From positions 1 to 43,541 of the forward strand of contig CACZKM010000009.1 of assembly GCA_902781745.1 (NCBI GenBank): a stretch of 43,541 nt of DNA, given 5' to 3'. How positions within the stretch are numbered: position 1 is the stretch's first letter; every line of letters begins with the position of its first letter. The stretch is from Oscillospiraceae bacterium. Lineage in GTDB: Bacteria; Bacillota; Clostridia; Oscillospirales; Oscillospiraceae. The position numbers were made by a program, and so were the translations under genes. The notes under the pieces are model-generated. The model was given only the letters and a program-made list of their open reading frames with translations. It searched no databases and was not told the origin of the DNA. This document shows, one piece after another, positions 23,381 to 43,541 of this stretch.

Positions 23381-23436
23381 GCGCTTCAAAACCGCAAAGC
23401 CCAAGGCTTCACGAAGTCACACCAAAGTGCCTGCAC

Positions 23437-23559
23437 GTCTTCTCCCATCCAGACTGTTACTGTCGGTCCCGGAATTACGCCGGGTCAGCTGCCTTACCCT
23501 TTCGGATAAGCGCTCGCGGACTGTACCGCCGGTGGGGACTTTCACCCCGCCCTGAAGAC
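23437..23559 (-). ncRNA. FMN riboswitch (RFN element)
   Basis: Read on the minus strand, the element opens with GTCTTCAGGGCGGGGTGAAA, continues with CCACCGGCGGTA and AGTCCGCGAGCG, and closes with GACAGTAACAGTCTGGATGG then GAGAAGAC. These are the conserved blocks of the FMN aptamer, and P1 pairs GTCTTC with GAAGAC. FMN binding should lower ribU expression. It lies 130 bases upstream of ribU with an apparent translational expression platform in between. Confidence 0.97.
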
Positions 23560-23582
23560 ATCGTATTTCGTTGTCATCTCCT

Positions 23583-40864: not shown

Positions 40865-43243
40865 CTATTTCAGCTCCACGATGGTGACCCCGGTCTCGCC
40901 CTCGCCGTAGCGGCCCAGGCGGAAGGACGCCACGCCCTTGGCCCGCTTGAGGTAGGCGTGGACCGCCTTGCGCACCGCCCCGGTGCCCTTGCCGTGGATG
41001 ACGGTGATCTGGGTGAGGTTGGCCAGGATGGCCCGGTCCAGGAACTGGGCCAGGACCCCTTCGGCCTCGTCGGTGGTCATGCCCCGCAGGTCCACCTCGG
41101 CCTTGGCCCCCAGGCTGCGGAGCTGGTGCTCGGAGCGCTGGATGAACTTTTTGGCCTCCTTCTGGGCCTGGGTCTCCCCTTCCACCACCCGGACCTCCTC
41201 CTGTTTGGCGGTGATCCGGAGGATGCCCGCCTGGAGCTGGAGGACGCCGTCCTTGTTCACCGACAGGACGCTGGCCTGGGTGCCCGTCTTGAGGATGGTC
41301 ACCGTGTCCCCCTTCTGGGCGGGGCGGAGCATGGGCGGGGCCTCGGGCTCCTCCTTGGCCCCCAGCCTGCCCTCGGCCTCGTTGAGCTGGTGGCGGAGGT
41401 CCGCCCGCCGCTCGTTTTCCGCCTGGATATCGCCCCCCTGCTTCCGGGCCTGCTTCCGCATGTCGGAGAGCTCCCGGAAAACCTGGTCGGCGGTGCGCCG
41501 GGCATCCTCTAAGATGGCCCGGGCCTCGGCCTTGGCGGCGGCCTCGTTCTTTTCCTTCTCCTTCTGCAGGGAGTCCCGGTAGGCCTGGGCCTTGGCGGCG
41601 GCCTCCTCCATCTCCCGGCGGAGCTGGGCGGCCTTGACCTGCTCCTTCTCCATCTCCTGGCGCTGGGCCTCCAGCTTGGTGAGCACGTCCTCAAAGCGGA
41701 CGTTCTCGGCGCTGACCCGGTCGCTGGCCTTCTGGATGATCTCCTGGGGCAGCCCCAGCCGCCGGGAAATGGCAAAGGCGTTGGACTTGCCGGGGATGCC
41801 CACCAGCAGCCGGTAGGTGGGGGCCAGGGTCTCCACGTCAAACTCGCAGGAGGCGTTCTCCACCCCGGCGGTGGTCATGGCGTAGACCTTCAGCTCGGCG
41901 TAGTGGGTGGTGGCGGCCACCAGGGCCCCCAGGGACCGGGCGTGCTCGATGATGGCAGCGGCCAGGGCCGCGCCCTCCACCGGGTCCGTGCCGCCCCCCA
42001 GCTCGTCGAAGAGGATGAGAGTATCCGGGTCGGTCTCGGCCAGCATCCCCACGATGTTGCTCATGTGGGAGGAGAAGGTGGACAGGGACTGGGCGATGGA
42101 CTGCTCGTCCCCGATGTCCGCCAGGACCCGGTCAAAGACCCGGACGGCGCTGCCGTGGTCGGCGGGGATGTGGAGGCCGCACTGGGCCATGAGGGTGAGC
42201 AAGCCGATGGTTTTTAAGGTGACGGTCTTGCCGCCGGTGTTGGGGCCGGTGATGACCAGGGTGTCGAAGCCCTCCCCCAGGGACAGGTCGTTGGCCACGG
42301 CGGTCTTTTTGTCCAGCAGGGGGTGCCGGGCTTTTTTCAAGAAGAGACTCTTCCGGGACAGGGCGGGCTCCATGGCCTCCATGTTCACCGACAGCCGCCC
42401 CCGGGCGAAGATGCCGTCCAGCCGGATGAGCAGGGCGTAGTCCTCGCTGATGTCGTCCTTGAAGGCGGCGCACTCGGCGGAGAGCTCCGCCAGGATGCGG
42501 TCGATCTCCTTCTCCTCCTTGGCCTGAAGCTCCCGGAGCTCGTTGTTGGCCTTCACCACCCCCATGGGCTCGATGAAGAAGGTGGAGCCGGAGCCCGACA
42601 GGTCGTGGACCAGGCCGGGGATCTCGTTCTTATACTCCGACTTCACCGGCACCACGTACCGGCCGGACCGCTGGGTGATGATGGCCTCCTGTAAGTACTT
42701 GGCCTGGGAGGAGGAGATGATCTTCTGCAAAATATCCCGGACCTTGCTCTCGGTGGCCCGCATGTGCCGCCGGATGGAGGCCAGCTCCGGGCTGGCGGAG
42801 TCGGCCAGCTCCCCGTCCCCTACGATGGAGCCGGTGATCTTGTCCTCCAGGAACCGGTTGGGGTGGAGGGAGCGGAAAAACTGGTCGATGACCGTCTTTT
42901 TCTCGGCGTCGCTCTCGCCGTAGTCCTTGGCGGACCGGGCGGCGGCCAGGACCCCGGCGATGTCCAGCAGCTCCCGGGTGTTCAGGCTTCCCCCCATGTC
43001 CGCCCGCTGGAGGTTCCCCGCCACGGGCTTTACCCCGGAGAAGGACGGGGAGCCCTTCAGGACCATCATGTCCACCGCGGCGGTGGTCTCCTGGAGGCGG
43101 CGGCGGACCTCGTCGGGATCGGTCTCGGGGCGGAGGGACAGGGCCCGCTCCTTCCCCTCCTGGGTCACCGCCTGGGCGGCCAGCAGCTCCAGCACCCGGG
43201 GCAGCTCCAGGGTCTCCATGGATTTTTCAAACAGATCGCTCAT
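40865..43243 (-). CDS. mutS2: Endonuclease MutS2
   Basis: 792 residues from the ATG at 43243 (MSDLFEKSMETLELPRVLEL), behind AAGGAG. A much longer reading frame exists upstream but runs through the hairpin array, has no ribosome binding site and matches no MutS2. The core and lever domains come first (about 1-320), the ATPase P-loop GPNTGGKTVTLK is near residue 335, Walker B and signature follow (TLILFDELGGGTDPVEGAAL). A charged coiled coil (about 510-620) and the Smr nuclease domain (about 716-790, VDLRGMTTDEAEGVL and HGKGTGAVRKAVH) finish the protein. MutS2 suppresses recombination and acts on stalled ribosomes in Firmicutes. It lies in front of HPr. Confidence 0.96.
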   Translation of the reverse strand: MSDLFEKSMETLELPRVLELLAAQAVTQEGKERALSLRPETDPDEVRRRLQETTAAVDMMVLKGSPSFSGVKPVAGNLQRADMGGSLNTRELLDIAGVLAAARSAKDYGESDAEKKTVIDQFFRSLHPNRFLEDKITGSIVGDGELADSASPELASIRRHMRATESKVRDILQKIISSSQAKYLQEAIITQRSGRYVVPVKSEYKNEIPGLVHDLSGSGSTFFIEPMGVVKANNELRELQAKEEKEIDRILAELSAECAAFKDDISEDYALLIRLDGIFARGRLSVNMEAMEPALSRKSLFLKKARHPLLDKKTAVANDLSLGEGFDTLVITGPNTGGKTVTLKTIGLLTLMAQCGLHIPADHGSAVRVFDRVLADIGDEQSIAQSLSTFSSHMSNIVGMLAETDPDTLILFDELGGGTDPVEGAALAAAIIEHARSLGALVAATTHYAELKVYAMTTAGVENASCEFDVETLAPTYRLLVGIPGKSNAFAISRRLGLPQEIIQKASDRVSAENVRFEDVLTKLEAQRQEMEKEQVKAAQLRREMEEAAAKAQAYRDSLQKEKEKNEAAAKAEARAILEDARRTADQVFRELSDMRKQARKQGGDIQAENERRADLRHQLNEAEGRLGAKEEPEAPPMLRPAQKGDTVTILKTGTQASVLSVNKDGVLQLQAGILRITAKQEEVRVVEGETQAQKEAKKFIQRSEHQLRSLGAKAEVDLRGMTTDEAEGVLAQFLDRAILANLTQITVIHGKGTGAVRKAVHAYLKRAKGVASFRLGRYGEGETGVTIVELK

Positions 43244-43267
43244 AGGCTCTCTCCTTTTATGTCGGCA

Positions 43268-43520
43268 CACCCGGCAGGCGGGTGATCTGCTTATCCTATT
43301 CTCCAATAAAAACAATACATTGTTTTTATTGCCATGGGCCATAGCCCATGGCGGCCGCATCGACTGTGCGGCCGGAGAAGCCGTGCAAAACCGAATCCTG
43401 CAAACCTTTGGTTTGCAGACCACGGCATTTTGCCGTGGTCGATTAATACTATTCCCAAATTAAAAACTTTAATTTGGGAATCCGCGTGCTGCGCACGCTC
43501 ATGCCGCGCAAGCGCGTCAT
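43268..43520. repeat. Array of about nine back-to-back perfect or near-perfect hairpins upstream of mutS2
   Basis: No recognised gene in 43244-43541. Stems, arms and loops: 43268-43284 CACCCG/CGGGTG, loop 5; 43304-43331, 13 bp CAATAAAAACAAT, loop 2; 43331-43352, 9 bp GCCATGGGC, loop 4; 43352-43374, 8 bp CGGCCGCA, loop 7; 43398-43418, 9 bp CTGCAAACC, loop 3; 43418-43440, 10 bp GACCACGGCA, loop 3; 43451-43481, 14 bp ATTCCCAAATTAAA, loop 3; 43484-43498, 6 bp GCGTGC, loop 3; 43501-43520, ATG-CGCGC arms with one mismatch, loop 2. Neighbouring stems share or nearly share a base. Stem sequences are unrelated, so this is not a tandem repeat of one unit. Long A/T stems alternate with G+C stems. If transcribed leftward it would be a multi-hairpin leader of mutS2; it could also be a DNA-level or mobile palindromic element. 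Confidence 0.9.
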
Positions 43521-43541
43521 ACCGTCTCATGCAGTCTCAAA

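Follow-up and report, generated by a model that had tools for sequence, protein, structure and literature searches.

The dense block of hairpins upstream of mutS2 in this Oscillospiraceae genome consists, as far as sequence can show, of two nested MITEs, here called elements A and B. We consider it probable that A inserted into recO and B into A, that an IS630-type transposase mobilised them in trans, and that their stems are kept at the DNA level. A composite mobile palindromic element had been among the readings offered in the initial annotation, and this one is borne out by two nested mini-transposons with target duplications, other copies, and an empty site in relatives. The striking array is accounted for by mobile DNA rather than by a mutS2 device.

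A dense array of perfect hairpins

The window, meaning the whole stretch of 43,541 nt analysed here, is the complete contig C9 of a draft genome (2.05 Mb, 95 contigs, 89% complete). All eight stems reported upstream of mutS2 were found, between positions 43304 and 43516. Perfect stems in element A measure 13 bp (hairpin 1, 43304-43331), 9 bp (hairpin 2, 43331-43352), 8 bp (hairpin 3, 43352-43374), 9 bp (43398-43418), and 10 bp (43418-43440); element B follows with perfect stems of 14 bp (43451-43481) and 6 bp (43484-43498) and a 5-bp stem (43505-43516). The claim that chance could not produce such an array held against 2000 dinucleotide shuffles of positions 43294-43541: four perfect stems that do not overlap, with loops of 2-8 and arms of 8 bp or more, were observed (shuffled mean 0.03, maximum 1), and the longest arm was 14 bp versus at most 11 bp in the shuffles. 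Both 9-bp stems share one base with a neighbour and were therefore left out of this count. For arms of at least 5 bp the contrast is weaker (6 stems versus a shuffled mean of 1.6, maximum 6). A ninth stem, noted just outside the array, is also present (43268-43284) and belongs to the displaced coding end of recO. Since the contig terminates within element B, the array extends past the window.

Probable insertion of element A into recO

A similarity search of the own genome divides the hairpin block at position 43446 into two repeat families. The first, element A, is represented by its left 153 bp (43294..43446, plus strand), delimited from own-genome copies, fold, and covariation. It holds five complete hairpins and a sixth that is cut by B; hairpins 1-3 (43304-43374) are enclosed by TTCTCC pairing with GGAGAA, and the linker reads GCCGTGCAA... 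Two more scored copies lie in the own genome (contigs C3, 92%, and C56, 80%), in addition to fragments and another copy on C68, and further copies with unchanged hairpin order occur in genome G150 and in a red-deer MAG. Complete copies (n = 5) span 175-189 bp, start with TACTATTC.., and end in ..GTA or ..ATA.

Element A is preceded by its target duplication (43291..43293; TTA on the plus strand, TAA in the sense of recO), which recurs as TAA on the recO side on contig C23. Next to it lies the displaced 3' coding tail of recO with its stop codon (43257..43290, minus strand). On C23, recO now ends ..TLDYYKTILRL*, followed by the right end of A and then by the right end of B with TAA. When the flanks from C9 and C23 are joined with a single TAA, they yield the protein end ..TLDYYKQITRLPGVPT* and the sequence GACTACTATAAGCA, letter-identical to locus L085, and the RecO tail of relatives reads ..TLDYYKQL.., resembling the joined version. 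As the joined flanks restore a RecO C-terminus like that of relatives, A appears to have inserted at a TAA in the last codons of recO. We infer from their matching ends, and not from a read, that the two contigs adjoin.

The end of recO is found at most 420 bp upstream of mutS2 in 11 of 14 same-genus relatives with a readable mutS2 start, and none of the 14 has a match to A or B in these 420 bp. The site is thus empty in 14/14 relatives, as is characteristic of MITE insertions, and the joined flanks restore recO. In the proposed course of events, A would have entered the recO-mutS2 gene pair at a TAA among the final codons of recO, giving recO a new short ending and leaving the old tail (43257-43290) behind as presumably non-coding DNA; B would later have entered a TAA in the last hairpin of A. 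The locus would then be a case of a gene ending rewritten by a MITE.

Element B, a repeat of the own genome

The target duplication of element B is the TAA at 43444..43446, within the last hairpin of A, and TAA is found again after B's right end on C23. The window holds the left 95 bp (43447..43541, plus strand) of about 147 bp, with the hairpins at 43451-43481, 43484-43498, and 43505-43516, the linker CGTCTCAT (43523-43530), and the 5' arm of the right-hand domain, AGTCTCAA (43533-43540), before the contig ends inside B. B occupies 38 or more sites across the own genome, the one in the window included, a count that rests on scoring 40 of 82 first-look candidates. Sixteen of these 38 places are within 5 bp of a contig end, so that the repeat probably broke the assembly. 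Copies with flanks show a full-length B of about 147 bp, from TACTATTCCC.. to ..GAGACTAGTA, and in its commonest form the two ends agree, by eye, at 15 of 19 positions. At its other places B has differing flanks and occurs in both orientations. Damaged copies lack the GC hairpin (L025) or hairpin 2 (L067), and others carry inserts or duplications. The elements, mostly 145-200 bp, are short, non-coding, repeated, and bounded by terminal inverted repeats, as MITEs are; their ends have TACTA in common and agree on average at 4.15 of the next 7 bases.

The same IS1182 gene, with B in its leader, was observed in two genomes of different genera and in different surroundings (L109/L047 on G000:C10, and L058 on G026:C60, 1074-2694), meaning either that B spread laterally on an IS or that the DNA was mis-binned. 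An IS5/IS1031-type partner, guessed at from the TNA target that we presume for such elements, was rejected: the genome's only PF01609 match is this IS1182 transposase with B in its leader, a carrier and not a partner.

Several other repeats were seen near A and B. A hairpin insert of about 50 nt (GTGAGACYCGAAATC..GATTTCG..GTCGAA..ATGCA.AGC) interrupts A or B elements, where three different insertion positions were seen, seemingly without target duplication, in the own genome (L033, where it is shortened, L040, L045, L051, L054, L068, L076) and in Christensenella UBA5399 (L166, L182). One A and one B element are interrupted in their right end, at CTAG or TTAG, by a repeat starting GGCCTTGTTTGAAAAATAGGCAGTATGACC (L021:491, L037:84-89). 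Solo hairpins of about 31-47 bp, with a single stem-loop between TACTA-like ends, were found at L066 (G000:C4:24349-24392), L062 (C13:20449), L065 (C73:119-163), and L110 (G145:C7), those at L065 and L066 being flanked by unequal TNA. Genome G145 further contains repeats starting TACTAATCTCCATTC.GCCGCGAAGCGGC that consist of strings of small hairpins (L112, L115, L117) and probably represent another MITE family.

Three-base target duplications

Locating the ends without using the right flank gave a set of 40 rows, from which the three copies of G011, having another left end, were left out. The same 3 bases (TAA, TGA, TTA or TCA) stand on both sides in 34 of these rows, and four-base agreement occurs in 1/40. 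The left flank is TNA in 40/40, by construction wherever a TNA pattern served to retrieve the locus; of the rows whose loci were retrieved by similarity (L021-L058), 14/14 have TNA and equal flanks. The six unequal rows are L065 (one palindromic site read on both strands, two rows), L066, L129 (112 bp), L165, and L174. In a wider set, 20 of 24 elements with a right end found have a left end behind the identical 3 bp; the other four rows, which lack such a left end, were dropped from the comparison of end pairing given below, L217 has no row, and L216 repeats L173. The elements thus possess the target-site duplication of MITEs, as 3 bp of the form TNA, in place of the TA duplicated by IS630-mobilised MITEs of the RUP-like class. 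Because of this difference, we place A and B as a variant of that class and not as a member.

A probable IS630-type partner

Among the named genomes, TNATACTATTCTCCAATAAAA was found in 51 stretches, most of them from rabbit-gut Oscillospiraceae MAGs and one Christensenella MAG, and also from the red-deer MAG, Papillibacter, and a few others. Two stretches without the hairpin chain (L144, Neobacillus; L146, Thermoflexibacter) were taken as chance, as was the single match in viral contigs (L183), which has neither a second end nor an IS. At six loci (L135, L138, L143, L161, L164, L180) no hairpin comes after the end; instead a leader common to these loci runs to an ATG at the edge of the contig, and L161 continues for 39 codons. 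This IS start and the MITE L145 have 23 nt in common (TACTATTCTCCAATAAAAAGTAG), so that IS and MITE share ends in relatives.

Locus L184 of genome G232 is a complete IS, reading TAA, the end TACTATTTTCTAATAAAAC, two overlapping reading frames, the end TACTAAACTCTAATTAAAGC, and TAA. Its frames match the Pfam families HTH_33 and DDE_3, and the locus matches NF033545 and PF13358; with the NCBIfam IS630 transposase model, the second frame scores 146 bits (cut-off 100) and the first 54, below the cut-off. The complete IS with both ends was read in one copy, so its own 3-bp duplication rests on one case. The N-terminus of the IS was matched in 3 of 300 family genomes, and its orfB has 21 matches in G333. 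IS and MITE also co-occur: in G232 a B-type match shares a contig with the IS, and G270 and G340, probably one genome (their IS sequences are the same and lie on identically numbered contigs), have the IS together with two B-type matches in G270 and A-type elements in G340. The own genome, in an assembly that is 89% complete and breaks at repeats, has no DDE_3 match and no match to the IS proteins.

We infer, with good support, that an IS630-family transposase most likely mobilises both elements: A and B would be non-autonomous and moved in trans by an enzyme that recognises the TACTA.. ends and duplicates 3 bp (TNA). Studied IS630 elements such as ISY100 duplicate TA (PMC2170065), and for the MITEs the TNA duplication is a real difference from them. 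Together with an IS630-type partner it would widen the known target choice of the family.

Distribution in related bacteria

Built from 15 copies, the covariance model R1 for the right half of B matched 44 of 400 family genomes, among them the own genome and some of the source genomes; the matches fall in 24 genera out of 106. The corresponding model for the right half of A (R2), with just 7 pairs, was set aside. In copies printed with their left part, the B-type order judged by eye is one end, hairpins 1-2-3, CGTCTCAT, a closing helix surrounding a GC hairpin and an A/T-flanked hairpin, and the other end. This order was seen in all copies of one printed set and most of another (L217 is in neither the first set nor the end-pairing rows), with hairpin 3 broken in L151 and the linker constant apart from rare changes. 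Christensenella and a relative have different stems, and linkers GCCGTGCAAT (L163), GCCGTTCAAT (L167), and GCCATCTAAT (L160). In this repeat family, found in 24 of the 106 genera sampled from one bacterial family, the stems vary in both arms and intermediates are few.

Covariation of the stems and its possible causes

Compensatory changes were sought in alignments of copies and are present: the covariation score exceeds that of all 500 shuffles, which ignore relatedness, in each of five alignments. Both-sided change affects 16/65 pairs in nine A copies (shuffled mean 5.3), 10/56 in nine same-genus B copies (7.5; reached in 24/500 shuffles), 10/61 in ten rabbit and other copies (5.0), 16/32 in 19 B copies (11.2), and 13/20 in 23 model-aligned matches (7.9; 82 cells versus 21.7), the last alignment being fitted to its own model. 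The count of further pair types was reached by 5, 486, 402, 500, and 107 of 500 shuffles, respectively, and is above most shuffles only in the A alignment and, weakly, in that of the 23 matches. When the pairings are slid, 30-56% of cells remain paired, versus 93-98% in the true register.

The stems are also nearly pure in pair type. Three alignments together contain 1487 Watson-Crick, 28 G-T, 31 A-C, and 70 other cells in structures taken from single-sequence RNA folds, and G-T and A-C are even in sum (28/31) but stand at 9/10, 13/6, and 6/15 in the individual alignments. A wide set for B's right half has 438 Watson-Crick, 11 G-T, 4 A-C, and 6 other cells, and without the four outermost pairs 359, 1, 3, and 5. 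An RNA acting from one strand is expected to favour G-U on that strand. Covarying, nearly pure Watson-Crick stems with no overall strand preference would thus speak, if not uniformly across the alignments, against a strand-specific RNA and for a cause at the DNA level.

Each element consists of two hairpin domains, and each terminus pairs with an internal partner to close the base of its domain. In 20 of 24 elements, the two ends match their own internal partners at 6.8 and 6.7 of 7 positions and the opposite end at 4.15, which indicates that local pairing, more than the likeness of the two ends, is kept; between elements, the same comparisons give 3.8, 4.7, and 2.8 of 7 (2.82 for the opposite end). 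We propose that a folded single strand, for instance at a replication fork, would favour mobilisation and would also template the copying of one arm onto the other. It is most likely, in our opinion, that the stems are kept perfect at the DNA level by folded ends, arm copying, or both. The initial annotation had offered, as one of two alternatives, that selection on pairing keeps each hairpin. This is partly borne out, since the stems covary, but so few G-U and A-C intermediates would fit arm-copying mutation as well.

Arm copying by itself is a serious candidate, if short of an even chance. Template switching at quasi-palindromes would copy arm onto arm, the structure would have no function, and the covariation would be mutational in origin; common both-sided changes with rare G-U or A-C intermediates agree with it, and so does one A hairpin whose loop varies between TTT and AAA from copy to copy, as expected of spacer inversion. 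There is precedent for template switching that creates and maintains perfect stems (PMC8794818). However, closing helices around other hairpins (about 40-70 nt) covary too, and the hairpin order and the linker are constant across genera. Folded DNA ends and template switching fit the perfect stems alike, which opens a testable general question: do perfect hairpins persist through selection or through template switching?

A function of the stems in RNA of either orientation, where a folded transcript renders the insert harmless (no occlusion, controlled termination or processing), seems somewhat doubtful. Selection on two strands would purge G-U and A-C equally, and the elements lie in both senses relative to the neighbouring called gene (19 same, 24 opposite, and 7 unscorable of 50, with a crude gene caller; B next to a gene start alone is 2 same versus 10 opposite, an unevenness without explanation). 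Transcripts of bacterial MITEs are described in a review as folding stably and as able to affect mRNA (PMC2229807). Against this, the elements have no Rfam match, in the window or in L046, L211, L137, and L136, and one terminator-like site was found versus 0.5 expected. A promoter or terminator role was rejected on counts of 0 and 1 sites versus 0.4 and 0.5 expected. The dedicated structured RNA that had been suggested finds no backing either, given the lack of an Rfam match and the occurrence of B in either orientation. Other Rfam matches were a tRNA in L136 and, elsewhere in the window, an FMN riboswitch (23433-23563, minus strand).

We tentatively consider, as a doubtful proposal, that such mini-transposons form a widespread class with ends that are recognised, or become accessible, as folded DNA hairpins. 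Each terminus would then have to close its own hairpin domain, and the IS630-like, TNA-duplicating transposase would act on the fold, perhaps on the lagging strand. If true, this would be a structure-dependent variant of the IS630 family, which is thought to use linear duplex ends. It is rather improbable that a co-evolving transposase binding four copies of the terminal repeat is the sole reason for covariation of the end-proximal stems: left and right ends are indeed more alike within an element (4.15/7) than between elements (2.82/7), but the local internal partner is matched better (6.8/7, 6.7/7) than the other end, and both-sided variation also occurs in hairpins other than the terminal repeats. 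Hardly credible is a mutS2-specific regulatory RNA or a MutS2/Smr DNA substrate, and with it the suggested mutS2 leader or MutS2/Smr-tied landing site, for which only the position of the array speaks, against 0/14 relatives with A, B or the array upstream of mutS2 and the presence of B elsewhere with other flanks and in either orientation. The mutS2 gene (40865..43243, minus strand, 792 aa) is intact, with no internal stop in its translation, and 15 of the genus's 16 genomes, this one among them, have a mutS2 match. In genomes G011 (L081) and G012 (L091), a mutually similar hairpin-rich repeat without a match to A or B lies directly upstream of mutS2.

Comparison with known elements

A search of the open-access literature returned no description of the A/B element family. 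In size (100-200 bp), terminal repeats, and stable folds, A and B resemble Correia/NEMIS and ERIC, but there the 5' end pairs with the 3' end, whereas in A and B each end pairs locally; CIR repeats of Caulobacter and Brucella similarly have a linker joining two arms, but are listed in the review's table without terminal repeats, carry a GANTC motif, and belong to alpha-proteobacteria (both PMC2229807). GTAG- and CGTC-tagged REPs are palindromes with a conserved unpaired tag, and CGTCTCAT likewise starts with CGTC; the GTAG type is linked to RAYT tyrosine transposases and the CGTC type to none known (PMC3733652). REPs measure 20-40 bp, unlike the elements described here, which have TNA duplications and an IS630-type partner, and the palindrome size of REP/BIME elements differs from ours (mostly 145-200 bp, with 3-bp duplications). 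The putative partner IS resembles ISY100 of the IS630 family in its DDE transposase and terminal inverted repeats, and on its one complete copy differs in duplicating 3 bp, TNA, where ISY100 duplicates TA (PMC2170065).

The best parallel, differing in target, is RUP of Streptococcus pneumoniae with IS630-Spn1, of which RUP is described as a MITE inserting at TA (PMC2229807). RUP is likewise small, present in many copies, and non-coding, has ends in common with an IS630 element, and also occurs inside IS elements, as B does in an IS1182 leader; it differs in its TA target versus TNA here, and here each end pairs internally within a hairpin chain. The elements are a variant among bacterial MITEs, of which RUP is one, and what appears to be new is the build of two hairpin domains and the TNA target with an IS630-like partner.
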